From the NCBI GenBank assembly GCA_024699325.1, contig JAILPS010000028.1:1-64000 (forward strand): 64,000 nt of DNA, written 5' to 3'. Position 1 is the first letter of the stretch; each line of letters begins with the position of its first letter. The DNA comes from Lachnospiraceae bacterium. GTDB lineage: Bacteria > Bacillota > Clostridia > Lachnospirales > Lachnospiraceae. Below are positions 13,860 through 32,809 of the stretch, piece after piece. A program made the translations under genes and the position numbers. The notes beneath the pieces are model-generated. The model was not told the origin of the DNA, made no database searches, and was given only the letters and a program-made list of their open reading frames with translations.

Positions 13860-16268
13860 ATGAATTACGGTTATTTTGATGAGGCGAACAGAGAGTACGT
13901 CATCACCAATCCGGCAACACCAGCGCCATGGGCGAACTATCTGGGTTCACCTGCATATGGTGCACTTATATCTAACAACGCCGGCGGCTACAGCTTCGTG
14001 CAGAGTGGTGCCAACGGACGTATCCTTAGATATCATTTTAATGCTGATGACACACCTGGACGTTACATCTATCTTCGCGATGATGAGACAGCAGATTACT
14101 GGTCAGCTTCATGGATGCCGGTAGGCAAGGATTTGTCACAGTATAAGAGCGAGTGCCACCACGGTACAGCTTACACAAACATGATAGCTCAGTACTCAGG
14201 CATCAAGTCTGAGGCTCTCTACTATGTTCCGCTTGACAAGACATACGAGGTTTGGAGACTTAAGGTAACTAACGAGTCTGATAAGGCTAGAACCATCTCA
14301 GCATTTGGTTACGCAGAGCTCACCAACGATTCCAACTATGAGCAGGATCAGGTTAACCTTCAGTATACACTGTTCATCACAAGAACAAGGTTCTTCGACA
14401 ACAAGATCGTTCAGACAATCAACGAGAACTGCACAGGCGCCATGAAGGAAGGCTATCCAACAACAGAGCGTGAGAGATTCTTCGGCCTTGTTGGCAACCC
14501 TGTTGCATCATATAACGGCGATAAGGATGCATTTATCGGCCCATGGCACGGATACGGCAACCCTCAGGCTGTTGTAAACGGCAAGTGTGACAATAAGCTC
14601 AACTACAACTCTAACGGTGTTGGAGCTCTTCACACAGTTATCAAGCTCGCTCCAGGCGAGTCTAAGGAGATCGCTTTCATCCTTGGAAGATACAACGTCA
14701 CAGACGCACAGAAGATTATGGACGGCTATGCAGACCTCGAGAACACAGTTCAGACAGAGCTTGCAGCCCTCAAGAAGTTCTGGCACTCTAAGCTTGAGAA
14801 CTTCCAGGTTAAGACTCCGGATCCACTGTTTGATACCATGGTTAACACATGGAACGCTTACCAGTGCTTCATGACATTCATATGGTCAAGAGCCGCATCA
14901 TTTACATACTGCGGTTTGAGAAATGGTTACGGTTACCGTGACACAGTTCAGGATATCCAGGGCGTTATCCACCTTGATCCAGAGGCAGCAGCAGACAAGA
15001 TCCGCTTCATGCTCTCAGCTCAGGTTGACAACGGCGGCGGACTTCCACTTGTAAAGTTCACACACAATGCAGGCCACGAGGACACACCTGATGATGTCTC
15101 CTATGTTCAGGCTACAGGTCACCCTGCATACAGAGCAGACGATGCTCTCTGGCTCTTCCCTACAATCAAGAAGTACTTAGGCGAGTCCGGCAACGCTGCA
15201 TTCCTCAAAGAGGTTATCCCTTATGCCAACAAGGATGAGGGCACAGTATATGATCACTTAAAGAGAGCCATCCGTTTCTCAGAGGAGAGACTTGGAAACC
15301 ACGGCATGCCTGCAGGTCTTCACGCAGACTGGAATGACTGCTTAAGACTGGGCAAGAAGGGTGAGTCATCATTCGTTGCCATGCAGCTCTACTATGCATA
15401 TTCAGTTCTCAAGGAGTTCGCTTTAGAGCTTAACGACACAGCATATGTTGCAGAGCTTGACGAGAAGCAGGCTAAGTTTGGCAAGCTTGTTCAGGATCTG
15501 TGCTGGGAGGATGACAGATATCTTCGCGGCTACAAGGAGGACGGTCAGGTTATCGGTTCTAAGAACGATCCTGAGGCTAACATGTGGCTCAATCCACAGG
15601 CTTGGTCAGTAATCTCAGGTCTGGCAACACCTGATCAGAGAGATAAGGCTCTTGAGTCTGTTCACAGAGAGTTAAACACACCTTACGGTGTTAGAGTTAT
15701 GGCTCCTTCATACAAGGATCACGCATTTGACGGTGCGCTTGCACTTCTGTTCAACGGTTCTACGAAGGAGAACGGCGGTATCTTCTCACAGCCACAGGGC
15801 TGGATCATCCTTGCAGAGTCACTTGCAGGACATGGAAACCGCGCTTATGAGTACTTCAAGGAGAGCTCACCATCTACCATGAACGACAAGGCTGAGATCA
15901 GAAAGCTCGAGCCATATGTTCACGGACAGTTTACAGAGTCTACAGAGTCTCCATACGAGGGACGCTCACATGTACACTGGCTCACAGGTACAGCTTCAAC
16001 CACCATGGTTGGTATGGTTGAGGGTATGATGGGAATGAGACCTGACCTTCACGGACTCACAGTTGCACCTGCAATCCCTTCTGACTGGAAGGAGCTTAGC
16101 ATGAGCAAGACATTCCGCGGCAAGCATCTGAATATCGTTGTCAAGAACCCTAACGGCGCTCAGGGCGGCTATAAGGAAATGTTCTTAAACGGCGAGAAGA
16201 TGGAGAACAACTACGTTCCTGCAGACAAACTTCTGGCAGAGAACGAGGTAGTTCTTGTAATGTCATAA
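13860..16268 (+). CDS. GH94 glycoside phosphorylase (cellobiose/chitobiose phosphorylase-like; substrate unresolved)
   Basis: MNYGYFDEANREYVITNPATPAPWANYLG, GYRDTVQDIQGV, catalytic-Asp block HADWNDCLRLG, ENGGIFSQPQGW, WLTGTAS. Confidence 0.9.
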   Translation: MNYGYFDEANREYVITNPATPAPWANYLGSPAYGALISNNAGGYSFVQSGANGRILRYHFNADDTPGRYIYLRDDETADYWSASWMPVGKDLSQYKSECHHGTAYTNMIAQYSGIKSEALYYVPLDKTYEVWRLKVTNESDKARTISAFGYAELTNDSNYEQDQVNLQYTLFITRTRFFDNKIVQTINENCTGAMKEGYPTTERERFFGLVGNPVASYNGDKDAFIGPWHGYGNPQAVVNGKCDNKLNYNSNGVGALHTVIKLAPGESKEIAFILGRYNVTDAQKIMDGYADLENTVQTELAALKKFWHSKLENFQVKTPDPLFDTMVNTWNAYQCFMTFIWSRAASFTYCGLRNGYGYRDTVQDIQGVIHLDPEAAADKIRFMLSAQVDNGGGLPLVKFTHNAGHEDTPDDVSYVQATGHPAYRADDALWLFPTIKKYLGESGNAAFLKEVIPYANKDEGTVYDHLKRAIRFSEERLGNHGMPAGLHADWNDCLRLGKKGESSFVAMQLYYAYSVLKEFALELNDTAYVAELDEKQAKFGKLVQDLCWEDDRYLRGYKEDGQVIGSKNDPEANMWLNPQAWSVISGLATPDQRDKALESVHRELNTPYGVRVMAPSYKDHAFDGALALLFNGSTKENGGIFSQPQGWIILAESLAGHGNRAYEYFKESSPSTMNDKAEIRKLEPYVHGQFTESTESPYEGRSHVHWLTGTASTTMVGMVEGMMGMRPDLHGLTVAPAIPSDWKELSMSKTFRGKHLNIVVKNPNGAQGGYKEMFLNGEKMENNYVPADKLLAENEVVLVMS

Positions 16269-17024: not shown

Positions 17025-18188
17025 GTGGCAAAATGTTGTCCGCTGTGCGACCAGCCTATAGAGGGAAATTTTTGTAAGGGATGTTTCAGGTTTGTAAAGC
17101 CTGTTGAGATTAAGTCGGGCGCCAAGATCAACGTGGGGCACGATCTGGAAAATGATGATAACTGCGATTATCACGGCACCACTGAGGAGTTTCACGAGGA
17201 GTATGCCTCAGATGCCGAGCACTACAGCTACCACGAGAAGGAGGGTTTTACCCCCCACGAGGACTATCAGAACGTGGCTGACAGTGAAGAGGATTATGAC
17301 AGAATAGTCAGCAACGACTATGTGGGAGATTTTACCACCAAGGGAAACTACGGCGCATCTGTAAACAACTCTGCGGCCTCGTCGTCAACCAGGACATATA
17401 ACTATCCCAGGACGTTTGAGACCACCAGGGCGAAGGTTTATAAGTCTGATCAGAAGGCGGGAGCTATAGGCGCAGTAATATTTATTGCTGCAATTGTGAT
17501 AGTCATTTTTGCATTTAAGTTTGTGACGGAGGACATGCTCGGCGGCTACAAGGAATACGAATACGACGAAGTGGTTGTAGCAGAGACTGCTTTTGAACTG
17601 AGCGATGACGAATACGCGGCTATGTGTGTGAAACTGGGCTATGACGAATATGGCTATAAGGCGCTCACCCACAGCGAGGCTGTAGACACAGGCTTACAGG
17701 ACACCCCGTGGTATCCCATGAATATGTCCATGAAGCAGTACAGAACCAGCGTGCTCTCGATTCTCAAGAAGAATGGCATTGATCCTAAGATCATGGCACT
17801 TGAGGAATATGATGAGAATCTCTACTTAGACAGGGATGGCTCAGAGGTGGCGTTATTCTATGTCGAGGATTCGTATTATCTGGTGGATGACTACACATAT
17901 ATGGTGATTGTGGGAAACAGCATCACAGGCGATATGCTCTACGCCTATTCCATCTTAACTGATGAGGAGGATATATTGGATGTCACCATGGCCATGCTTG
18001 AGGCCGGCGGATACGTTAGCGAGAACGTGGAGGATGACAGAGGGTATTTAAAGAACATCACCGACATGAGCAACTACAGTGACGACAGCGGCTACTACTA
18101 CGATGTCGGAAGGTTTGGAGACTGCTATGTGAGCAGCGCCTACGATGAGGATTACGGCAGTTTTATCGTGTATGTGTATGCTTGGTAG
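17025..18188 (+). CDS. Zinc-ribbon, single-pass membrane protein of unknown function
   Basis: GTG start behind GGAGGG; N-terminal CCPLC...CKGC; one TM (AIGAVIFIAAIVIVIFAFKFV); acidic/Tyr-rich flanks. Confidence 0.75.
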   Translation: MAKCCPLCDQPIEGNFCKGCFRFVKPVEIKSGAKINVGHDLENDDNCDYHGTTEEFHEEYASDAEHYSYHEKEGFTPHEDYQNVADSEEDYDRIVSNDYVGDFTTKGNYGASVNNSAASSSTRTYNYPRTFETTRAKVYKSDQKAGAIGAVIFIAAIVIVIFAFKFVTEDMLGGYKEYEYDEVVVAETAFELSDDEYAAMCVKLGYDEYGYKALTHSEAVDTGLQDTPWYPMNMSMKQYRTSVLSILKKNGIDPKIMALEEYDENLYLDRDGSEVALFYVEDSYYLVDDYTYMVIVGNSITGDMLYAYSILTDEEDILDVTMAMLEAGGYVSENVEDDRGYLKNITDMSNYSDDSGYYYDVGRFGDCYVSSAYDEDYGSFIVYVYAW

Positions 18189-18242: not shown

Positions 18243-20552
18243 TTATACCTCCAAAACGTAGCTTTTTCCAGCTTCTGTGTAGAAGGTGTTTTTGTTGTCG
18301 ATGACTGTCACAGGAACCTCGTGGTCGTCGCAGGTTACCTTGACCGGATGGCTGTATGCGACTGTGGCGGTGTTGCCTGACTTGGAATATATCTCGGCGC
18401 TTGTGAGCACACCGTTCTTCCAGGAAATGCTTACCTCGAAGCCGCCTCTTGCCAACAGTCCGCTCACGTAGCCCTGTGGCCACTGTGGTGGAAGGGCGGG
18501 CAGAAGAGAGATGACATCTCCCTGGCTCTGGAGAATGGCCTCCGCAATACCTGCCGTGGCTCCGAAGTTTCCGTCAATCTGGAACGGAGGGTGGGAGTCG
18601 AGCATATTCATGTTGGTGGATCTGGTGAGTAATAGCATAATGTTTTCAAAAACCTTCTCGCCGTCAAGAAGTCTCGCCCAGAAGTTTATGATCCATGCCC
18701 TTGACCAGCCTGTGTGGCCGCCGCCGTGGCTTAATCGCCTCTCTATGGTTGCCCTTGCGGCTTCTGCAAGCTTAGGAGTTCTGAAGGAGGATATCTGGTC
18801 GGCAGGGTAGAGGGCAAACAGCTGTGAAATATGTCTGTGTCCGATCTCCACCTCGTCGTAGTCCACTGCCCACTCCTGTATCTGGCCGTATTTGCCAATC
18901 TTGGGCTTGGGGAGTCTGTCTCTAAGCTCTCTGAGCTTATCTGTAAATTCATCTGAGCAGTCGAGGATTCTGGCCGCATCTATGCAGTCGCTAAACAGCT
19001 GGAAGATGATCTCTGAATCCATGGATGGACCAATGCACATGCTGCCCTTGGAGCCGCTCTGTGTGAGATAGGTGTTCTCAGGGGAAACACTCGGGCCGGT
19101 CACGAGATTGCCGTGGCTGTCCTCAAACATGTAGTCCACGAAGAAGCGGGCTGCCTCGCAGATGGTGTCGTATTTGCTTCTTAGGAATTCCTTATCCTGC
19201 GTGAAGCGGTAGTGCTCGAAGATATGTAAGCACAGCCACGCGGCGCCCATGGGCCAGATAGTTGCAGGAATCCATATATCCTGCGGTGCGCAGTCGCCCC
19301 AGAGGTCTGTGTTGTGATGCGCAACAAAACCGCCGCAGTCATACATTTCCCTGGCTGTGATGCGCCCGTTAGGTCTCATCTTCTCGATAAGGTCGAAGAG
19401 AGGAGTGTGGAATTCGCTCAGGTTTGTGACCTCCACAGGCCAGTAGTTCATCTCTGTGTTTATGTTGATGGTGAAGCGTCCGCCCCAGGCAGGCCATGCA
19501 TCCTTATTCCATATACCCTGAAGGTTTAGAGGAAGTGAGCCCGGACGGCTTCCGCTTATCATGAGATATCTTCCGAAGTTGTAGTAGAGCTCCACCAGCC
19601 CGTTGTCTGTAAACTTCATGGGCTCGCTGTCAGTGTTTGCGCGAAGTCTCTCAATTCGCTCGTCGGTTGAGAGGTTATTAAGCTCCTCACTTCCGGCCTG
19701 ATCTAAGCACAGCTCACTTCTGTAGAATATGGGCTGGTAATCCTCCAGATGTCTGTCGAGAACCGCCTCGTAGCCCCTTCTTGAAGCCTCGTCCACGTCC
19801 GTAATGCACTGCATGACGTAGTTGTCCATGTAATAGCTGGTTCTCGCTGCGACATAAACAGTCACATCGTCGCAGTCCTTAGCCTCTAGCTTCATGCCGA
19901 TGTTTGACACGCTTCCGCCGTGGGCGTTAACCCTCACAGCTGTGCTGAAACATATTCCGTCCTCACCGCCGCATCCGCCGCTAAGGAAAATAGTGTTGGA
20001 GTTCATGGGACGGTTGTCGTCATAGTAGTCATCCCTTCCGTCAAGCCACACCTTAAAGCTTATGCTTGATGGCTTGTCGGCGCTTATGTGTACAACCAGA
20101 ACATTGTCAGGATATGACACGAAATATTCTCTCTTGTAGTTCACGCCCTGTAAACTATAGGAAACTGAGGCAACCGCGGTCTTAAGATCTAAATCGCGCC
20201 TGTAATCATGTGCCTCCCCCTCGTTGAGGCTATACTCAAACTTCAGGTCCGTCAGAGGCATGTAGTGGCGGCAGTTTGGCGTAACTCCCATCATGCCGTC
20301 CACGGACAGCTTCTCAGCCTCCTCAATCTTCTCCTCGAGAAGAAGTTCCCTGATCTTTGGAAAATAATCAGGACAGCTTGGGTTATTGCGGTTTCTAGGG
20401 CCGCCGCTCCAAACAGAATCCTCATTAAGGCCCACAAAATCATTATTCAGATGGCCATAAACCATACCGCCGATTCTTCCGTTTCCAATGGGGAGCGCGT
20501 GATCAAAATCAACCGCCGCATCCTTATACCATAATACTGTGTTGCTAGCCAT
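18243..20552 (-). CDS. GH95 family alpha-L-fucosidase/alpha-L-galactosidase, predicted cytosolic
   Basis: LPIGNGRIGGMVYG, NTEMNYWPVEVTNLSE, HPPFQIDGNFGATAGIAEAI. Start placed at ATG 20552 behind GGAGGT (listed ORF start 20570). No signal peptide. Confidence 0.92.
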   Translation of the reverse strand: MASNTVLWYKDAAVDFDHALPIGNGRIGGMVYGHLNNDFVGLNEDSVWSGGPRNRNNPSCPDYFPKIRELLLEEKIEEAEKLSVDGMMGVTPNCRHYMPLTDLKFEYSLNEGEAHDYRRDLDLKTAVASVSYSLQGVNYKREYFVSYPDNVLVVHISADKPSSISFKVWLDGRDDYYDDNRPMNSNTIFLSGGCGGEDGICFSTAVRVNAHGGSVSNIGMKLEAKDCDDVTVYVAARTSYYMDNYVMQCITDVDEASRRGYEAVLDRHLEDYQPIFYRSELCLDQAGSEELNNLSTDERIERLRANTDSEPMKFTDNGLVELYYNFGRYLMISGSRPGSLPLNLQGIWNKDAWPAWGGRFTININTEMNYWPVEVTNLSEFHTPLFDLIEKMRPNGRITAREMYDCGGFVAHHNTDLWGDCAPQDIWIPATIWPMGAAWLCLHIFEHYRFTQDKEFLRSKYDTICEAARFFVDYMFEDSHGNLVTGPSVSPENTYLTQSGSKGSMCIGPSMDSEIIFQLFSDCIDAARILDCSDEFTDKLRELRDRLPKPKIGKYGQIQEWAVDYDEVEIGHRHISQLFALYPADQISSFRTPKLAEAARATIERRLSHGGGHTGWSRAWIINFWARLLDGEKVFENIMLLLTRSTNMNMLDSHPPFQIDGNFGATAGIAEAILQSQGDVISLLPALPPQWPQGYVSGLLARGGFEVSISWKNGVLTSAEIYSKSGNTATVAYSHPVKVTCDDHEVPVTVIDNKNTFYTEAGKSYVLEV

Positions 20553-20648
20553 AAGCGTACCTCCAGGCACATAATATAAGTGATTCTACCACATTTGTAA
20601 AAAAATAACAACGAAACTATTAAACATTTTGTCAGGGGCTGTGTCCGC

Positions 20649-21960: not shown

Positions 21961-23976
21961 ATGGACGAGACAAAAATTGAAAACCAGTCCGAGCCTAATG
22001 TATCTGACGACACACAGACTCAGCCGGTTTACACTGCGTCTAAGAAGAACACAAAACACGTAAGAGGAATCGGCGACTATGTATTTATTGTACTTAGAGC
22101 TTTGATAATTCTGCTTGTGTGCTCTATGTTCTTTGCCGCATTTAACCCTGCGTATATCTTTACGAAGGCTAATGGAAACAGCATTAACAACATTTCTTCT
22201 GTTTTCACCGCAGCATTATCTAAGAGCAGTATCGTTGTCAATGATATCAGCAACGCCATAACTAAGGGGGTTTTGGACGCTGCACCATTTAATACGCTTC
22301 ACATTGCCTGCATAATAATTGTTCTGGCGATTATTGTTATCGCAGGAGCAGGCTGCGTGTCAGTTGGCAACAACAGAATGAAGCATCTTGCAACCAAGAT
22401 TGCTGTGGGCGGAGGTTTACTTCTTCTCATCGGCTGCTTCATGGTCAATTCATTCTACAACGGTATTGAGGGTATGATCCACACATCAGACTCGACTGAG
22501 ACATCATATCAGGTTGAGATGAAGAGTCAGACCAACAAGTTCACATCAACATATCTGTGGGATGAGGCGAGCGGCACATATGTCAAGAGCGATTACGCTT
22601 ACAATGACTCAGCAGTTTACGAGATCGTAATCACCAACAACTCAGGTATCGACCTTGTGGGCTGGGCTCTCGAGATCAATGTAGGATCAGGCTACGACAT
22701 TAACGACGTCAAGAAGGTTAACCAGTGGTTCTCACTTCAGCAGCTCTCAAGAGGCGAGACCAAGTACGAATATAATGTTTCTTATAATGAGGAGTCCGGA
22801 ATTCTCTACATCACACCTGATGACTATGAGGTTAAGGACGGCGTTCTTGTCAAGACAACAGATGCAGCTGTAACAGACGCATCTACTATCAAGGCCGGAA
22901 CTCTTAAGATTACATTTATCGCTGAGAATATTCCTGAGGGAACAGAGGTTTCTGTTTACGACGGTGCCGCAACTTCGACAGTTGAGTATGCATATCCTAA
23001 GGGACTTACATTATACTTCGTATTTGCAATCCTTGTTATCGTGCTTGCAATAGCACTTGAGTTCCTTGTACCTAAGGCACTCCATTCAGAGGGATATGAG
23101 ATGGAGACACAGTATCAGCTGTTCTTAATGTTCCTTCCATTCATCCTTCTGATTTTCGCATTCTCATACCTGCCACTTTACGGTTGGAGATATGCGTTCT
23201 ATCAGGATGCCAACTCACCTCTCACAGGTGACAACTTCGTTGGCTTCTATTGGTTCAAGACACTGTTTGCTAACTCAACAAGAAGAGCTCGTTTCTTCCG
23301 AGTTATGATAAACACATTTGCAATGTCTGGTTTAGGACTTATCACAAGCTGGCTGCCTATGGCATTCGCCATCTTCTTAAACGAAGTTAAGAGCACCAAG
23401 TTCAAGAGATTCGTTCAGACATTCTCAACTATTCCAAACTTCATTTCATGGGTATTGATTTATGGTATCGCTTTCGCACTCTTCAATACCAATGGACTTT
23501 GGAACAGTGTATTTGGCGGAACAAGCAATGCACTTCAGAATCCTGACCACATGTGGCTTAAGATGCTTGCATGGGGAACATGGAAGGGTATTGGATGGAG
23601 CGCCATCATCTATATCTCAGGTATCGCCGGTATCGATCAGCAGCTCTACGAGGCGGCTTCAATCGATGGCGCGGACCGTTTCCAGAGAATGTGGAACATC
23701 ACACTCCCTGGTCTGCTTCCTACATACGTTGTAATGCTGGTAATGCAGATTGCAGGTATCCTGAGCAACGGTATGGATCAGTACCTCGTATTCTCTAATA
23801 CATTTACTTCTGAGCCACTCGAAGTACTTGATCTTTACGTTTATAAGGTTGCGTTCGAGGATAACCTCGTGCCTCTGTCTACTGTAGTAGGTATGGGTAA
23901 GTCAGTTATCAGTATTGTGTTATTCTTTGCAGCTAACTCAGCGGCAAAGGCAATCCGTGGAAACGGTATAGTATAA
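21961..23976 (+). CDS. LplB-type sugar ABC transporter permease with an N-terminal ~370-aa extension (3 extra TMs plus ectodomain)
   Basis: C-terminal ~300 aa is a binding-protein-dependent permease (YQLFLMFLPFILLIFAFSYLPLYGW, EAASIDGADRFQRMWNITLPGLLP EAA loop). N-terminal TMs ~40-60, ~113-135, ~144-163; ectodomain ~167-347; TM ~348-370. Confidence 0.9.
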   Translation: MDETKIENQSEPNVSDDTQTQPVYTASKKNTKHVRGIGDYVFIVLRALIILLVCSMFFAAFNPAYIFTKANGNSINNISSVFTAALSKSSIVVNDISNAITKGVLDAAPFNTLHIACIIIVLAIIVIAGAGCVSVGNNRMKHLATKIAVGGGLLLLIGCFMVNSFYNGIEGMIHTSDSTETSYQVEMKSQTNKFTSTYLWDEASGTYVKSDYAYNDSAVYEIVITNNSGIDLVGWALEINVGSGYDINDVKKVNQWFSLQQLSRGETKYEYNVSYNEESGILYITPDDYEVKDGVLVKTTDAAVTDASTIKAGTLKITFIAENIPEGTEVSVYDGAATSTVEYAYPKGLTLYFVFAILVIVLAIALEFLVPKALHSEGYEMETQYQLFLMFLPFILLIFAFSYLPLYGWRYAFYQDANSPLTGDNFVGFYWFKTLFANSTRRARFFRVMINTFAMSGLGLITSWLPMAFAIFLNEVKSTKFKRFVQTFSTIPNFISWVLIYGIAFALFNTNGLWNSVFGGTSNALQNPDHMWLKMLAWGTWKGIGWSAIIYISGIAGIDQQLYEAASIDGADRFQRMWNITLPGLLPTYVVMLVMQIAGILSNGMDQYLVFSNTFTSEPLEVLDLYVYKVAFEDNLVPLSTVVGMGKSVISIVLFFAANSAAKAIRGNGIV

Positions 23977-25017: not shown

Positions 25018-26790
25018 ATGATAAAGGAGTCGAAGAGATTTGCTGCTCTCGGTCTTGCAACCGCCATGGTTGCCACAGCATTTACAGGCTGTACAAGTGG
25101 TAATAACACCACCGAGACTACAACTGCAGCAGGTAATACTTCAGCAGAAACAACAACAGCGGGCAACGCAGTAGATCCATCTGCAGAGCCTATAACCATC
25201 ACCATGTTCAGCCAGGTGGCTAACTTCTCAGGCATCCAGCCTGGATGGAGTGGCAGCGTGTTCCTTGACAAGTTCAATGTCAAAATCAACATGGAGCCTG
25301 ACACAAATGGTGCTCTTGCAACTAAGATGCAGGATGGTAACTTAGGAGATATCGTTGTCTGGGGCAGCAGATCTGAGGATTATTTCACAGCTATCAAGAA
25401 CGGTTATCTTCTCAACTGGAACACAGACAACCTTCTCGACAACTATGGCCCATACATCAAGGAGAACTTAGCTACAGCTCTTGAGTACAATGCCAGCGTT
25501 AACGATGGTGTTGTTTATGGCTTCACAGGTACAGTTTCACTTGAGGGAAGCCCTAACGCAGACGGTCTGTTCTACACATGGGATACAAGATGGGATCTCT
25601 ATAATGAGCTCGGACAGCCTGAGATTAACGACCTGGATGATCTTATGAACCTCATGCTTGAGATGAAGAAGATCTATCCAACAGACGAGAACGGCAACGA
25701 GACATATGCTCTGTCTATGTGGCCTGACTGGGACGGCAACATGGTTATGTACGTTAAGGCTTTTGCAACAGCTTACTACGGATATGACGAGTGGGGATTT
25801 GGTCTCTACGATGTAGATACAGGTGTTCTTCACGGAGCACTCGAGGAGAATGGTCCTTACTACACATCACTTAAGTTCATCAACAAGTTATATCAGAACG
25901 GTCTTATCGATCCTGACTCAAGCTCTCAGGATTATCAGAAGATGACTACTAAGATGAAGGCCGGCGGATGCTTCTTCTCAATCTTCAACTACGCAGGTTC
26001 ATCTGTTTACAACACAGCTGAGCACGTTGCAGAGAACAGAATGATGCTTCCTCTTATCCCTAACGATGCCACACCACTTATCTATGGTTCATCTACAACA
26101 GGTAGCGGTTATGAGTGGACAATCTGCTCTAAGACACAGTATCCTGAGCTCTGCATGCAGATCATCAACTGGCTTGCAACTCCAGAGGGTGCTCTTACAT
26201 ACTGGTATGGTCCTCAGGGCGTATGCTGGGACTATGATGCAGACGGCAAGCTCTACTTAACAGATTTTGGTAAGAAGTGCAAGAATGACCGTACAACTGA
26301 TATGTCAGAGGTTGGTTATGCCGGAACATACAACGATGGTTCTCTTCAGGTTAACGCTAACATCTGGGGCACAGCATCTTACATCCCTAACGATCCTAAC
26401 GGTCAGGTATTCTACTCTGACATGTGGGAGAGCAGCTTGACAGATGCACAGTGCGATATTGAGGCACTTTGGAGAGAGTTCACAGGTGAGACTCTCGCTA
26501 TGTACTACTTAAACAACAAGGAAGGCGCTAAGTTATCACTTCCTACAGGCGTTTCTCACACAGATCCTAGCAAGAAGAATGACCTCTATGTTGACTGGAA
26601 GAACGTAGCAGAGACAATCAAGACTGGTTCTTGGAAGTGTATCTACGCTGCTTCAGACGAGGAGTTTGATCAGTTATTCGCAAGCATGCTCAAGGATGCT
26701 CAGGCTTACAACTATGATGCATGTATCGAGTACTCAGCAGCTCAGGCTGAAGTTCGTCATCAGATGGAAGAACTTCTCAAGTCTTTCTAA
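25018..26790 (+). CDS. Extracellular sugar-binding lipoprotein (LplA-like), copy 1
   Basis: Lipobox TAFTGCTSG; SBP architecture (GDIVVWGSRSEDYFTAIKNGYLLNW, MKAGGCFFSIFNY). Confidence 0.9.
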   Translation: MIKESKRFAALGLATAMVATAFTGCTSGNNTTETTTAAGNTSAETTTAGNAVDPSAEPITITMFSQVANFSGIQPGWSGSVFLDKFNVKINMEPDTNGALATKMQDGNLGDIVVWGSRSEDYFTAIKNGYLLNWNTDNLLDNYGPYIKENLATALEYNASVNDGVVYGFTGTVSLEGSPNADGLFYTWDTRWDLYNELGQPEINDLDDLMNLMLEMKKIYPTDENGNETYALSMWPDWDGNMVMYVKAFATAYYGYDEWGFGLYDVDTGVLHGALEENGPYYTSLKFINKLYQNGLIDPDSSSQDYQKMTTKMKAGGCFFSIFNYAGSSVYNTAEHVAENRMMLPLIPNDATPLIYGSSTTGSGYEWTICSKTQYPELCMQIINWLATPEGALTYWYGPQGVCWDYDADGKLYLTDFGKKCKNDRTTDMSEVGYAGTYNDGSLQVNANIWGTASYIPNDPNGQVFYSDMWESSLTDAQCDIEALWREFTGETLAMYYLNNKEGAKLSLPTGVSHTDPSKKNDLYVDWKNVAETIKTGSWKCIYAASDEEFDQLFASMLKDAQAYNYDACIEYSAAQAEVRHQMEELLKSF

Positions 26791-26930: not shown

Positions 26931-27668
26931 ATGGAGTTATTTAGTGTTGATGGATTTCTGTTTCAGTTTATGAGGCGACTGCTAGATATTCTGAAACTGA
27001 ATTTCTGCTGGCTTATATGCAGTCTCCCGATTGTGACCATAGGTCCGGCTACTGTCGCTGCATTTTCAGTCTCTCTGAAAATGGTGGACGAATCAGAAGG
27101 CTACGTTATGAGGCAGTTTTTTAAGGAATTTAAGGCTAATCTAAAGATTGGCTTCCCGCTTGGAATATGTTTCCTTGTGGGGCTATACGCCATATATCTG
27201 GACACTCAGCTCATATCTGCAGGTAACCAGGGGCTGATTAAGGGTTATGTTCCCTTCGTGTTCATGGCGGTTACCATCATAACCATATATATTTTTATCT
27301 CTGTGTTCATATATTCCTTCGCCCTTGCGGCCAGATACGAGAATACATTTTTAAGGACGGTAAAGAACTCTCACGAGATATTCCTAAGACATTTCCCTAA
27401 GACTCTGGCGATAATTTTTATTGTGGCGATAGAGCTGGTATTTATCCTGTGGAACAGGGTAACCATTTATTTTGGAATTCTTATAGGGCCTGCCTGCATC
27501 ATCTACACCATAAGCGGCATGGCGCTTCCGATATTCAGGCAGATTGAGCGCGACGGCGGTGCAGTGCTTAAGGAGTATCAGAAGAGCGAAGAAGCGGTTT
27601 TTGAGGACCATCCGGAGAACGATTCCATAGCCGCTAAGGCACATATGAACCTAAAATCTAAGAAATAG
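26931..27668 (+). CDS. YesL/DUF624-family membrane protein
   Basis: FMRRLLDILKLNFCWLICSLPIVTIGPATVAAF, multiple TM, next to LplABC-type genes. Confidence 0.85.
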   Translation: MELFSVDGFLFQFMRRLLDILKLNFCWLICSLPIVTIGPATVAAFSVSLKMVDESEGYVMRQFFKEFKANLKIGFPLGICFLVGLYAIYLDTQLISAGNQGLIKGYVPFVFMAVTIITIYIFISVFIYSFALAARYENTFLRTVKNSHEIFLRHFPKTLAIIFIVAIELVFILWNRVTIYFGILIGPACIIYTISGMALPIFRQIERDGGAVLKEYQKSEEAVFEDHPENDSIAAKAHMNLKSKK

Positions 27669-27761: not shown

Positions 27762-29815
27762 GTTTATGATTAGGTAGTATATTTAAAGGGGGTTGTTATG
27801 AAAACTAAGAGCAAAAGGATACTTGCCTGTGCCATGAGTGGACTTATGGTGGCAGGTGCGTTTGCAGGTTGTAGTCAGACTGACACGGGCACTACAACGG
27901 CGGCTGAGCAGGCGAAGCAGACAACTGCAGCACAGAAGGAGGAGGCCACTGAGGAGGTTACCGAGGCTCCTGAGATAGGTAATATATCAGGAACTGTGGC
28001 GGATGACGGGCCTGTAAAACTTAGGTTGTTTGGCCAAGTTACAAGTTACACCGGCATACAGCCTGGATGGATGGGGCAGATCCTCAGGGAAAAGTTTAAT
28101 GTGGAGCTGGAATACATCAATAATGTAAATGGTACGTTTGGTGTTCTCATGGATCAGGAGGACCTGGGAGATATTGTGGTCTGGGGATGTTATTGCGAGG
28201 ACTATCAGACTGCGATTGATAAAGGGCTTCTTCTTGACCTAAATAAGGATAATCTTCTTGAAAATCATGGCTCATATATAAAGGCTAATCTCACAGATTC
28301 CCTTGATGACAATATGGCAAAGAGCGGTGGTGTGTGCTATGGATTTAACGGCAGTTGCAGTGCCGAGAACAGTGTCAATGCAGAGGATTTGTTTCAGGAG
28401 TTTGATGTGAGATGGGATCTCTACAACGAGCTGGGACAGCCCGCCGTGGCTGATTATGACGATCTGCTTCAGTTGATGATCGACATGAAAAAACTCTGTC
28501 CTGTTGATGAGAAAGGCAACGAGACATATGCATTTCCAGTATTTAGAGATTGGGATATTTACAATCAGGCTATGACAATTAGCTTAGCCAGTGCCTACTC
28601 AGGCTCCGATTTTGATCTTTTCTTTATGAAGGATGGGGCTACAGGTGAAGTGAGCGCCGTGACACAGAAGAACGGCCCGTATTATGAGGCACTTAAGTTT
28701 GTGAATGCGCTCTACAGAAACGGTCTGGTTAATCCCAATGCCAAGCAAGAGGATTATACTGTGGTTTCCGACGATGTGAAAGCCGGAAGATATCTTATGA
28801 GCCCGACCGATTATCTGGGAAGAGATTTATATAACACAGATGAGCATATAGCAGAGAACAAGATGATGCTTCCAATTATGCCGTCTGAGGCTAAGATGCC
28901 AGTCCGTTGTTCCAATACGGTAGGTAACAGAGGTATATTTACAATAGGAGCCAAGACTGAACATGCTGAGCTTTGCATGGAGATACTCAACTGGCTGGCA
29001 ACTCCTGAGGGAACACTCACAATTATTTACGGTCCAAGAGGCATATGCTGGGATGTTGATGCTGACGGTTATCTATATCTGACAGATCTGGGAAGAACAT
29101 ACAACCTAGAAGATAGATATACAGAGATTACTTATGACGATATTATAAGCATTTATGGCGAAGGTATTCTTATGCTTAATGCCAACGTGTGGTCATATTC
29201 ATCACAAATTCCGTCTGATACAGCGGGCTTAGACCTTGCAGAGGGACAGTCTTATTATTTTGGCAGATGGAAGAACGAGCAGGGTGAGGCTTCATGTGAT
29301 CTGGAGGAGGCATGGAGAACGTATGCCGGATGCAACAGCGTTGATGAATACATTCTGAAGAATGATAATTCCTTGTACATGCCATACCACGAATATATTC
29401 AGCTGCCGGAGAGCGGAGACATTGCCAGCAAATATGAGGCGGTAGGCAAGGTTGTTGTGGACGGCTCGTGGGCATGCATATATGCTGACAGCGATGAGAA
29501 GTTTGAGGAGCTGTTTGACAAGATGGCGGCTGACGCAGATGCAGCGGGCTTAGAGGAGTGCTATCAGTATATCGTTGAAAGCTTTAAGTAATAAGGTTTA
29601 TGATTAGGTAGTATATTTAAAAAGGGGGTTTTTATGAAAACTAAGAGCAAAAGGATACTTGCCTGTGCCATGAGTGGACTTATGGTGGCAGGTGCGTTTG
29701 CAGGTTGTAGTCAGGCTGACACGGGCACTACAACGGCGGCTGAGCAGGCGAAGCAGACAACTGCAGCGCAGAAGGAGGAGACCACAGAGGAGGTTACCGA
29801 GGCACTGCCTGAGAC
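27762..29815 (+). repeat. Direct repeat: 5'UTR and leader of copy 2 (27762-~27970) duplicated at copy 3 (29596-~29800)
   Basis: GTTTATGATTAGGTAGTATATTTAAA plus ~170 nt of near-identical coding sequence at both genes. Confidence 0.9.
27798..29591 (+). CDS. Extracellular sugar-binding lipoprotein, copy 2
   Basis: Lipobox GAFAGCSQ; paralogous to 25018-26790 (ITSYTGIQPGWMGQIL / FSGIQPGWSGSVF). Confidence 0.9.
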   Translation: MKTKSKRILACAMSGLMVAGAFAGCSQTDTGTTTAAEQAKQTTAAQKEEATEEVTEAPEIGNISGTVADDGPVKLRLFGQVTSYTGIQPGWMGQILREKFNVELEYINNVNGTFGVLMDQEDLGDIVVWGCYCEDYQTAIDKGLLLDLNKDNLLENHGSYIKANLTDSLDDNMAKSGGVCYGFNGSCSAENSVNAEDLFQEFDVRWDLYNELGQPAVADYDDLLQLMIDMKKLCPVDEKGNETYAFPVFRDWDIYNQAMTISLASAYSGSDFDLFFMKDGATGEVSAVTQKNGPYYEALKFVNALYRNGLVNPNAKQEDYTVVSDDVKAGRYLMSPTDYLGRDLYNTDEHIAENKMMLPIMPSEAKMPVRCSNTVGNRGIFTIGAKTEHAELCMEILNWLATPEGTLTIIYGPRGICWDVDADGYLYLTDLGRTYNLEDRYTEITYDDIISIYGEGILMLNANVWSYSSQIPSDTAGLDLAEGQSYYFGRWKNEQGEASCDLEEAWRTYAGCNSVDEYILKNDNSLYMPYHEYIQLPESGDIASKYEAVGKVVVDGSWACIYADSDEKFEELFDKMAADADAAGLEECYQYIVESFK

Positions 29816-31412
29816 TGTGTCTCACGACGAGACGGTTACGCTTACAGTGTTTTGTGGCTTAGGCGGTTACAGAGGCATACAGCCAGGATGGATGGGACAG
29901 ATCCTTGAGGAGAAGTTTAATGTTAAGTTTGACTATGTACTTGATTACGAACGTATCCAGCTGTTTCTCATGAATCAGCAGGACCTGGGAGATATTGTGG
30001 TCTGGGGAGATTATGACGAGGACTATCAGACTGCGATTGATAAAGGGCTTCTTCTTGACCTAAATAAGGATAATCTTCTTGAAAATTATGGCTCATTTAT
30101 AAAGGCTAATCTCACAGCCTCTCTTGATGACAATATGGCAAGAAGTGGCGGCGTATGCTATGGATTTAGCGGTAATAATGCTCTTGAAAATAGTGTAGAT
30201 TACTATGATGGAACATTTATAAGATGGGATGTCAGATGGGACCTCTATAACGAGTTGGGACAGCGCGCTGTGGCTGATTATGACGATCTGCTTCAGCTTA
30301 TGATTGACATGAAGGCACTCTGTCCTACAGACAGTGAGGGCAATGAGACTTTTGCGCTGCCTATACACAGCGAGTTTGATGATTATTATCTTACAAATGC
30401 AGTGCTTCTCGCCAAAGCGTATGCTGGAGTGGACTTTAAGGACTATGCCGTATATAGCGGGATTACAGGAGAGTATTCTAATATTCTCGCTGAGGATGGG
30501 CCATATTATGAGGCTCTTAGATTCCTTAACGCTCTCTACAGGAATGGTTTAATTAATGCAGATGCTAAGGATTTGAATTATCTGGATGTTAAAGATCAGC
30601 TTTTAGCTGGAAGATATTTGATGAGCACGGTCTATTATCTGGGCGGAGATGTTTATAACACAGATGAGCATATCGCAGATAATAAGATGATGCTTCCAAT
30701 TATGCCATCTGATGCGAGAGGGATTGTTTACTGCGATAAAACTGTAGGAGACGGCGGAGTATTTTCAATTAGCGCCAAGACAGAACATAAGGAGCTTTGC
30801 ATGGAGATACTCAACTGGCTGGCAACTCCTGAGGGAACACTCACAATTATTTACGGTCCAAGAGGCATATGCTGGGATGTTGATGCTGACGGTAAACTCT
30901 ATCTGACTGATACAGGAAGAGCTTGCAGGAATGACATGAACACTGAGATTACATATAATGGCGTGACATATCCATTTCGTGAAGGATTACTCATGATTAA
31001 CAATAATATATGGAAATACAGCTCTCTTATTCCGTCCGACACATTGGACTTAAATCTTGCTGCCGGTAATACATTTTACTGCGAAAGCTGGGATAATGAG
31101 CAGGGCGCGGCTTCATGCGATTTAGAGGAGAGTTGGAGGACATATTCAGGATGTAAAAATAGTGAGGAGTTCATTCTTAAGAACGACAATACTGTATATA
31201 TTCCTTACAGCGGATATATTGCTGTGCCAGATAGCGATGTCCTGGCTTCTAAGTATGAGACGGTAGGCATGATTATTGCAGACGGTTCATGGGAGTGCGT
31301 ATATGCAGACAGCGAGAAGAAGTTTGAGAAGCTCTTCGACAAGATGACTGCTGATGCATATGCAGCGGGACTACAAGAATGCTACGAGTATTGTATTGAC
31401 AACGTGGAATAA
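29634..31412 (+). CDS. Extracellular sugar-binding lipoprotein, copy 3
   Basis: Leader nearly identical to copy 2; shared blocks ELCMEILNWLATPEGTLTIIYGPRGICWDVDADG. Confidence 0.9.
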   Translation: MKTKSKRILACAMSGLMVAGAFAGCSQADTGTTTAAEQAKQTTAAQKEETTEEVTEALPETVSHDETVTLTVFCGLGGYRGIQPGWMGQILEEKFNVKFDYVLDYERIQLFLMNQQDLGDIVVWGDYDEDYQTAIDKGLLLDLNKDNLLENYGSFIKANLTASLDDNMARSGGVCYGFSGNNALENSVDYYDGTFIRWDVRWDLYNELGQRAVADYDDLLQLMIDMKALCPTDSEGNETFALPIHSEFDDYYLTNAVLLAKAYAGVDFKDYAVYSGITGEYSNILAEDGPYYEALRFLNALYRNGLINADAKDLNYLDVKDQLLAGRYLMSTVYYLGGDVYNTDEHIADNKMMLPIMPSDARGIVYCDKTVGDGGVFSISAKTEHKELCMEILNWLATPEGTLTIIYGPRGICWDVDADGKLYLTDTGRACRNDMNTEITYNGVTYPFREGLLMINNNIWKYSSLIPSDTLDLNLAAGNTFYCESWDNEQGAASCDLEESWRTYSGCKNSEEFILKNDNTVYIPYSGYIAVPDSDVLASKYETVGMIIADGSWECVYADSEKKFEKLFDKMTADAYAAGLQECYEYCIDNVE

Positions 31413-31597: not shown

Positions 31598-32809
31598 ATG
31601 ACGGACAACATCACAACCAAGGACGCTGAAGAACCTGTTGAGAGCATGGAGGAGTGGATGCAGAGGCATCTCACGCGTGATCTTCTGTGGACGCTTCCGG
31701 TTCCAAGCCGCGCATTTTTGAAGGAGATGGGCTGGAATAACGGCTGCTATCAGGTGGTCGTATCCACAGGTTATAAGAAGAAGAAGCTGGCGAAGGGCTA
31801 CAGGCTTAGCGATATGCTTCTTCTCAACAAAAACGAAAACATCAGAATAAGCTATTACTACGATTCGGGCTTCGAATTCATCCTGCTTCTCGACCGCGTG
31901 GCGGTTAATAAGTTGGACAGTATCGTGAAGCACTGGAAGAGTATGCCACCTCAGGAGAACAGTGTCTTCTATGACCTGTTTTTTTCTTATGGCCGCGTGG
32001 TCAGCGACCCGAAGGATATCGGAATATCCTACAACCAGGCCAGAAAACTCATGGACAGACAGTTCTTCAGCCAGAAGGGCGAGCACATTCTGGGCACTGC
32101 TGAGATGGAGCTTTTAGAGGAAATGCAGACTCACGAGGAGTTAGACGTTGAGAAGGCGGATGAATACTGCGATTTGCTGTTTTCAAGTGTTCAGGCCATA
32201 AACCACAGCAAGCTCACGGAGATTCTAGACGATATCTACTCCTACCTAAGCTACTGCAAGACTACTGAGGAGCAGGTTAAACTGTTTTTGCTGGATCTGT
32301 TCATGCTTATCAGAGAGAAGCTGCACGCAGCCTACAGCGGCGATAAGATATTTGAGGAATCCACCAGATATTACCTTAACGTAATCTACTCGAAGAATTA
32401 TCTCTACGAGATTATCGAGACCTTCAGGGATTCTCTTGAGGTCGTTATGTACATTATCGGCGGTCCAAGCCGTGACAATGTGTTAAATGACATCCTAAAC
32501 TATGTGGCTCACAACTATGACAGAAGCCTGAAGCTTGAAACCCTGGCACCTCTGTTTGGCTACAACAGCGCATATCTGGGCAAGATTTTCCGCAAGGGTG
32601 TGGGCGTTCCATTTACAAGGTATGTGGACATGGTCAGGATTGAGAGGGCGAAGGAGCTTCTCATGAGGGGCAACGACAAGGTCTACAAGATATCCGAGAC
32701 GGTGGGATATCACAGCGTGGATTACTTCCACAGGAAGTTCCAGAAGTACGTGGGCATGAGCCCTGCGGAGTATAGAAGAAATTACCTCGAGACAGGACGC
32801 GAGGAATAG
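31598..32809 (+). CDS. AraC-family regulator (YesN-like output and linker, no receiver domain)
   Basis: C-terminal double HTH: LKLETLAPLFGYNSAYLGKIFRKGVGVPFTRYVDMVRIERAKELL...VGYHSVDYFHRKFQKYVGMSPAEYRR; no N-terminal REC motifs. Confidence 0.88.
   Translation: MTDNITTKDAEEPVESMEEWMQRHLTRDLLWTLPVPSRAFLKEMGWNNGCYQVVVSTGYKKKKLAKGYRLSDMLLLNKNENIRISYYYDSGFEFILLLDRVAVNKLDSIVKHWKSMPPQENSVFYDLFFSYGRVVSDPKDIGISYNQARKLMDRQFFSQKGEHILGTAEMELLEEMQTHEELDVEKADEYCDLLFSSVQAINHSKLTEILDDIYSYLSYCKTTEEQVKLFLLDLFMLIREKLHAAYSGDKIFEESTRYYLNVIYSKNYLYEIIETFRDSLEVVMYIIGGPSRDNVLNDILNYVAHNYDRSLKLETLAPLFGYNSAYLGKIFRKGVGVPFTRYVDMVRIERAKELLMRGNDKVYKISETVGYHSVDYFHRKFQKYVGMSPAEYRRNYLETGREE

Follow-up and report, generated by a model that had tools for sequence, protein, structure and literature searches.

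Organization of the locus

The window analysed here is a stretch of 64,000 nucleotides from a Lachnospiraceae bacterium. Its forward strand encodes, at 21961..23976, an LplB-type ABC sugar permease of 671 aa, in which an N-terminal module of four transmembrane helices (TMs) and an ectodomain are combined with a permease core. The genes that follow on the same strand encode a partner permease of 319 aa (PF00528; 23991..24950), a solute-binding lipoprotein (SBP1, SBP_bac_1; 25018..26790), a DUF624/MusI-family membrane protein (26931..27668), two further solute-binding lipoproteins that are 66% identical to each other (SBP2, 27798..29591; SBP3, 29634..31412), and an AraC-family regulator (31598..32809). 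SBP2 and SBP3 form a tandem pair (27798-31412) with near-identical leader peptides, and share ~41-42% identical residues with SBP1. The loci of relatives that were examined contain one SBP each, compared with three in the window. The DUF624/MusI-like membrane protein, which also follows an SBP or permease gene in the relatives' loci, is a constant partner of four-TM permease operons across genera.

On the reverse strand, a GH95 fucosidase/galactosidase-type enzyme without recognisable signal peptide is encoded at 18243..20570, with mnmA located between this gene and the permease. A GH94 phosphorylase (13860..16268, forward strand) may belong to one catabolic region with the permease; the linkage of the two is not conserved in loci L017 and L062. 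The window also encodes a 387-aa protein (17025-18188) that contains a single TM and, at its N-terminus, a zinc-ribbon-like motif (CPLCDQPIEGNFCKGC).

Architecture and membrane topology of the permease

The only Pfam family detected in the 671-aa permease is BPD_transp_1 (PF00528), at residues 471-659 (59.2 bits, cut-off 26.4), and the best structurally solved relative, AlgM1 from an alginate importer (4tqu), aligns with residues 382-670 (5e-38). Since both matches are confined to the later part of the protein, the first ~380 residues are additional. The later part is an ordinary six-TM core of the LplB/AlgM1 type (23107..23973, forward strand). The EAA loop in this core (EAASIDGA), and the location of the gene in an operon with a partner permease and lipoprotein SBPs, identify the protein as LplB-type. 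A reading made earlier from the sequence only had considered such an extension atypical of LplB proteins, which is borne out by the genome itself, where the closest paralogue has 331 aa. The 671-aa reading frame from which that reading started, and the coordinates 22459-23001 given to residues 167-347, are identical to those that we recomputed.

Hydropathy peaks are located at residues 41-59, 115-133, 147-165 and 352-370, followed by the first core TM at 387-405. The first three peaks correspond to extra TM1-TM3 (22081..22455, forward strand), with an outer loop of 55 aa between TM1 and TM2, and the fourth to extra TM4 (23014..23070, forward strand). Because the core begins after the fourth helix (around residue 382), there are four extra TMs, and not three as had been counted before, giving approximately ten TMs in total and leaving the core in its normal orientation. 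An AF2 model of the full-length permease, which had low confidence (pLDDT 47) and was used for secondary structure alone, contains helices at 37-60, 107-133, 138-172 and 347-369, and strands only in the segment 183-334.

The loop at residues 134-146, on the cytoplasmic side, contains three Lys/Arg and no Asp/Glu residues. The insert between TM3 and TM4 (residues 166-351, 186 residues) is acidic, with 12 Lys/Arg and 28 Asp/Glu. With the positively charged loops in the cytoplasm and the 186-residue insert acidic, the ectodomain of ~170 aa is predicted to be extracytoplasmic, in agreement with the location outside the cytosol that had been proposed for residues 167-347. The domain itself spans residues 180-340 (22498..22982, forward strand; predicted strands 183-334), and is connected to the membrane by short linkers at both ends.

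Distribution and origin of the insertion

We searched 396 genomes of the family Lachnospiraceae with a profile of the N-terminal part of the permease. The four-TM module is present in ~30 genera, in permeases of ~480-540 aa with the same core. The length of the loop between TM3 and TM4 is bimodal, with 18-36 aa in the relatives without ectodomain and 172-182 aa in the genus of the window. Permeases with the ectodomain were found only in the window's genus, in all five species seen (G000-G003 and RUI154). In a sample of the phylum (398 genomes), the ectodomain profile matched nothing beyond the window's own genome. Full-length homologues of the permease are encoded in four other genomes of the genus, which, along with the bimodal loop length, shows that the 671-aa architecture is not a chance product; the copies in G001-G003 were found again in contigs of named Lachnospiraceae MAGs.

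In a tree of the core sequences, the ectodomain-bearing permeases are monophyletic (100/99) and nested among permeases without ectodomain, including their sister G358 (93/97). Because the ectodomain clade is single and nested in this way, the gain of the domain was a single event, an insertion into the outer loop. Both the architecture of the permease and this insertion history are solid. Among four members of the genus, the core is 72.6% identical, TM1-TM3 45.7%, and the ectodomain 35.7%. The motifs GWA, YxxN, P-x-x-Y, AG and DG of the ectodomain are invariant in the genus at pairwise identities of 31-38%.

The ectodomain is also mobile. A second carrier, encoded in G002 (L058:8971-11088), is a 705-aa protein in which a zinc ribbon at the N-terminus, a TM and WD40-like repeats are followed by the ectodomain at the C-terminus, an arrangement that again places the domain outside the cell. 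The gene is located in a run of genes for zinc-ribbon membrane proteins.

A different elaboration is found in a permease of the same subfamily from G385 (L057:4306-7416; 1037 aa), in which about three tandem four-TM modules precede the core (HMM matches at 264-372, 395-516 and 568-732, and a weak one at 197-238).

In ~13 genera, the gene just upstream of the permease without ectodomain encodes a separate secreted, membrane-anchored surface protein (for example L059:8180-9073, L060:9419-11254, L061:9866-10735, L041:523-1434, and others). In these proteins, at least one beta-rich domain, with ITFTVSGFxxD as its closing motif, is joined by a low-complexity linker to a C-terminal TM and the sequence KKKK; the proteins have no Pfam family or solved relative. 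They are not homologous to the ectodomain, the hhalign score of 12.0 being at the level of shuffled alignments. The genus of the window keeps a copy of the anchored protein, away from the permease (G000:C26). It is tempting to see the ectodomain and the anchored upstream protein as two solutions for the same purpose, a relation that is unproven.

Relation of the ectodomain to CBM2

Searches of Pfam, NCBIfam and the PDB with the single ectodomain sequence gave no match, and Pfam CBM_2 (PF00553) did not match any of five ectodomain members up to E = 10. For a more sensitive comparison, CBM2 domains of Lachnospiraceae were gathered with PF00553, aligned, and compared with the ectodomain alignment profile to profile. 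The two profiles match with hhalign probability 96.7 and score 59.6. Column shuffles of the ectodomain alignment scored 12.3 +/- 2.0 (150 shuffles, maximum 19.6), the reversed alignment 22.2, and Big_2 Ig-like domains of the same family 13.7.

Searches in both directions agree with this match. We ran the CBM2 HMM over 1108 open reading frames, from the window and from loci left out when the HMM was built. The N-terminal domain of a GH9 cellulase ranked first, and seven ectodomain proteins occupied ranks 2-8 (E 1.6e-5 to 1.9e-3), with the next open reading frame at E = 1. In the reverse direction, the ectodomain profile gave weak matches outside the genus in the 396 family genomes. Five of the seven best out-of-genus matches examined are CBM2-type domains. 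Pfam CBM_2 is found in three of the seven (L124, L126 and L128), a fourth (L127) overlaps a CBM_2 match collected with PF00553, and the fifth is the GH9 N-terminal domain, recognised by the CBM2 HMM (1.4e-9). The remaining two are an HD-domain protein and a protein without assignment. A match to an anti-sigma-factor-like protein (G614, L052), considered as another relative of the ectodomain, was rejected as a chance match.

AF2 models the ectodomain as all-beta, with moderate confidence (pLDDT 65, pTM 0.65). When this model was used as a Foldseek query, mainly CBM3 and CBM2 structures came out on top, none of them at E <= 0.001; Cellulomonas fimi CBM2a was matched with probability 1.00 and a TM-score of 0.55 by target length. 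The matches include clostridial RsgI-type sensors with CBM3-like domains (4b9c, 4b97).

A divergent CBM2-like domain is the best reading of the ectodomain, and is well supported at the level of remote homology, although by Pfam's own threshold the domain is outside CBM2 (PF00553). The initial suggestion of a CBM2/Ig-like domain is thus upheld as remote CBM2 homology with a predicted all-beta fold, but not as membership of the Pfam family.

Candidate residues of a binding face

In C. fimi CBM2a, the surface aromatics that stack on sugars are W17, W54 and W72. In a joint alignment of CBM2 with six ectodomain members, the W17 site is occupied by W, Y, W, W and F in five members, and holds no aromatic in the sixth. 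All six have an aromatic residue around the W54 site, most of them in a Y-x-[Y/F]-N motif, with a register that is uncertain by two residues, and all six have Tyr at the W72 site.

In the window permease, residues 269-272 (YEYN; 22765..22776, forward strand) align with the 'WN' binding-site motif of CBM2, within a register of about two residues either way, and Tyr269 and Asn272 are invariant in the genus alignment. Tyr289 in ITPDDY (22825..22827, forward strand), likewise invariant in the genus, aligns with the DYN motif, or third binding aromatic, of CBM2. Trp235 in the invariant GWA motif (22663..22665, forward strand) is aligned with the VxGW core Trp of CBM2. The aromatic residues aligned with the three CBM2 sites favour a binding face that has been kept, short of proof.

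Likely cargo

A GH29 alpha-L-fucosidase is encoded within 15 kb of the four-TM permease in 11 of the 26 genomes that have both, against an expectation of 0.45 (Poisson P 2.5e-12); these genomes are of different genera, yet not fully independent. Loci L059 and L060 are examples of this arrangement. In the genus of the window, GH95 adjoins the permease in three of four loci (G000, G001 and G003, divergently upstream), and is absent from its vicinity in G002. A GH95 gene is also near the permease in G514. In G001, the GH95 gene next to the permease (G001:C104:3910-5054) is in two pieces, split by a TGA codon, which reflects either decay or an assembly error. Across the wider four-TM family, GH95 is linked in one of 13 genomes, which is at chance level, and GH29 alone is significant there.

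Because GH29 is near members of the permease family more often than expected by chance, and GH95 lies beside the loci of the genus, fucosylated oligosaccharides are the likely cargo of the four-TM permease subfamily. For the genus of the window, fragments of xyloglucan or of mucin are both possible.

Possible functions of the ectodomain

The computations establish how the permease is built and placed in the membrane, how its domain was gained, the remote relation of this domain to CBM2, and the association of the subfamily with fucosidases; that the domain binds glycans, which ligand it takes and how this affects transport are inferred. In the explanation that fits best, an LplB-type subfamily with four extra N-terminal TMs would import fucosylated oligosaccharides, and a CBM2-like domain, predicted to be a beta-sandwich, entered the short outer loop between TM3 and TM4 in a single insertion before the window's genus diversified. 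The domain would then stand at the mouth of the channel, adjoining the docking site of the SBP lipoprotein, where a face of Tyr, Trp and Phe residues would most likely give it a weak affinity for glycan chains. Such weak binding could raise the local concentration of glycan for the SBP and the channel. Capture of glycans by the CBM2-like ectodomain of the permease is probable, if only just. Capture of insoluble polymers is unlikely, because the ectodomain is membrane-proximal, beneath the Gram-positive wall. More tentative is a fuller version, which we regard as possible rather than probable: a working CBM2-type module in the channel subunit would hand fucosylated plant or mucin glycans to the SBP and the channel, while related genera would use the anchored, neighbour-encoded protein in trans.

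The CBM2-like fold could instead have been reused to dock or stabilise the SBP lipoprotein without binding glycans, converging on the role of MalF P2. The ectodomain adjoins the expected docking face of the SBP and is held at both ends, and its faster divergence (35.7% identity, against 72.6% in the core) could be that of a domain in contact with a partner. The window moreover encodes three SBPs for one permease pair, among which sorting might help. However, aromatic residues at the CBM2 sites, superfluous for docking, are largely kept, the beta-propeller protein of G002 carries the ectodomain without an adjacent SBP, and the position of the domain is unlike that of P2. We consider this explanation rather unlikely, though the strongest of the alternatives.

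Binding to the cell's own wall polymers, or sensing of glycans, would fix the importer in place or report to the cell instead of feeding the channel. That the other carrier is a surface protein with zinc ribbon, TM and beta-propeller, and not a transporter, is in line with such a role, as is the presence of the RsgI-type sensors among the Foldseek matches. The permease has no signalling domain, however, and the insert is located in the transport subunit of a catabolic operon, which makes this role improbable. Even less credible is a tolerated passenger without function, since restriction to a single genus and fast divergence are offset by retention in all five species sampled and by motifs that stay invariant despite the low pairwise identity.

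We retain glycan capture as the preferred reading, in which a CBM2-related outer domain may let the importer of this gut or rumen bacterium take part in catching the glycans that it feeds on. Substrate capture in type I ABC importers is a task ascribed to the SBP. If our reading is true, the CBM-derived domain in the channel subunit would add a second element for capture or docking, recruited from enzymes that degrade plant walls. A title and abstract search of the literature, of incomplete coverage, found no description of a fusion between a permease and a CBM. The sister permeases without ectodomain provide a natural control for experiments on the domain, and the fucosidase linkage points to a cargo that can be tested for a transporter subfamily that is uncharacterised and is common in Lachnospiraceae of the gut and rumen.

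Comparison with known systems

MalF and the window permease are both subunits of sugar ABC importers, and in both three TMs are followed by a large extracytoplasmic domain. P2 of MalF contacts the binding protein (Daus and colleagues, as cited in PMC3150292). The MalF-like topology proposed in the sequence-only reading does not hold, since P2 is located inside the core, between core TM1 and TM2, whereas the CBM2-like ectodomain of the window permease lies ahead of core TM1. Permease residues 426-634 are covered by the MalF profile, whose position 264 falls on residue 426, and the NCBIfam MalF model scores 38.4 bits, below its cut-off of 392. P2 ends around MalF residue 275. As position 264 corresponds to residue 426, the end of P2 would fall near permease residue 437, in the loop that joins core TM1 to TM2, ~90 residues after the ectodomain. 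This loop is of ordinary size in the window permease (residues 406-454, 49 aa). Homology between the ectodomain and P2 is ruled out by position and by profile score, and the two are at most analogous.

With LplB/AlgM1-type permeases, the window permease shares the six-TM core, the EAA loop, and the gene order of partner permease and SBP, and differs in the ~380 N-terminal residues, which add four TMs and the ectodomain. The four-TM-extended permeases of other Lachnospiraceae share with it the module, the core and the order of genes, and are likewise associated with fucosidases, but have the short loop in place of the ectodomain. With CBM2 (PF00553), the ectodomain has in common the profile-profile match, the core GW motif and the DY motif, and, with less certainty, the aromatic positions and a predicted beta sandwich. 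Two insertions of ~20 aa, one ahead of the W54 site and one behind the third aromatic, set it apart from CBM2, and its carrier is a permease, whereas CBM2 is carried by extracellular hydrolases.
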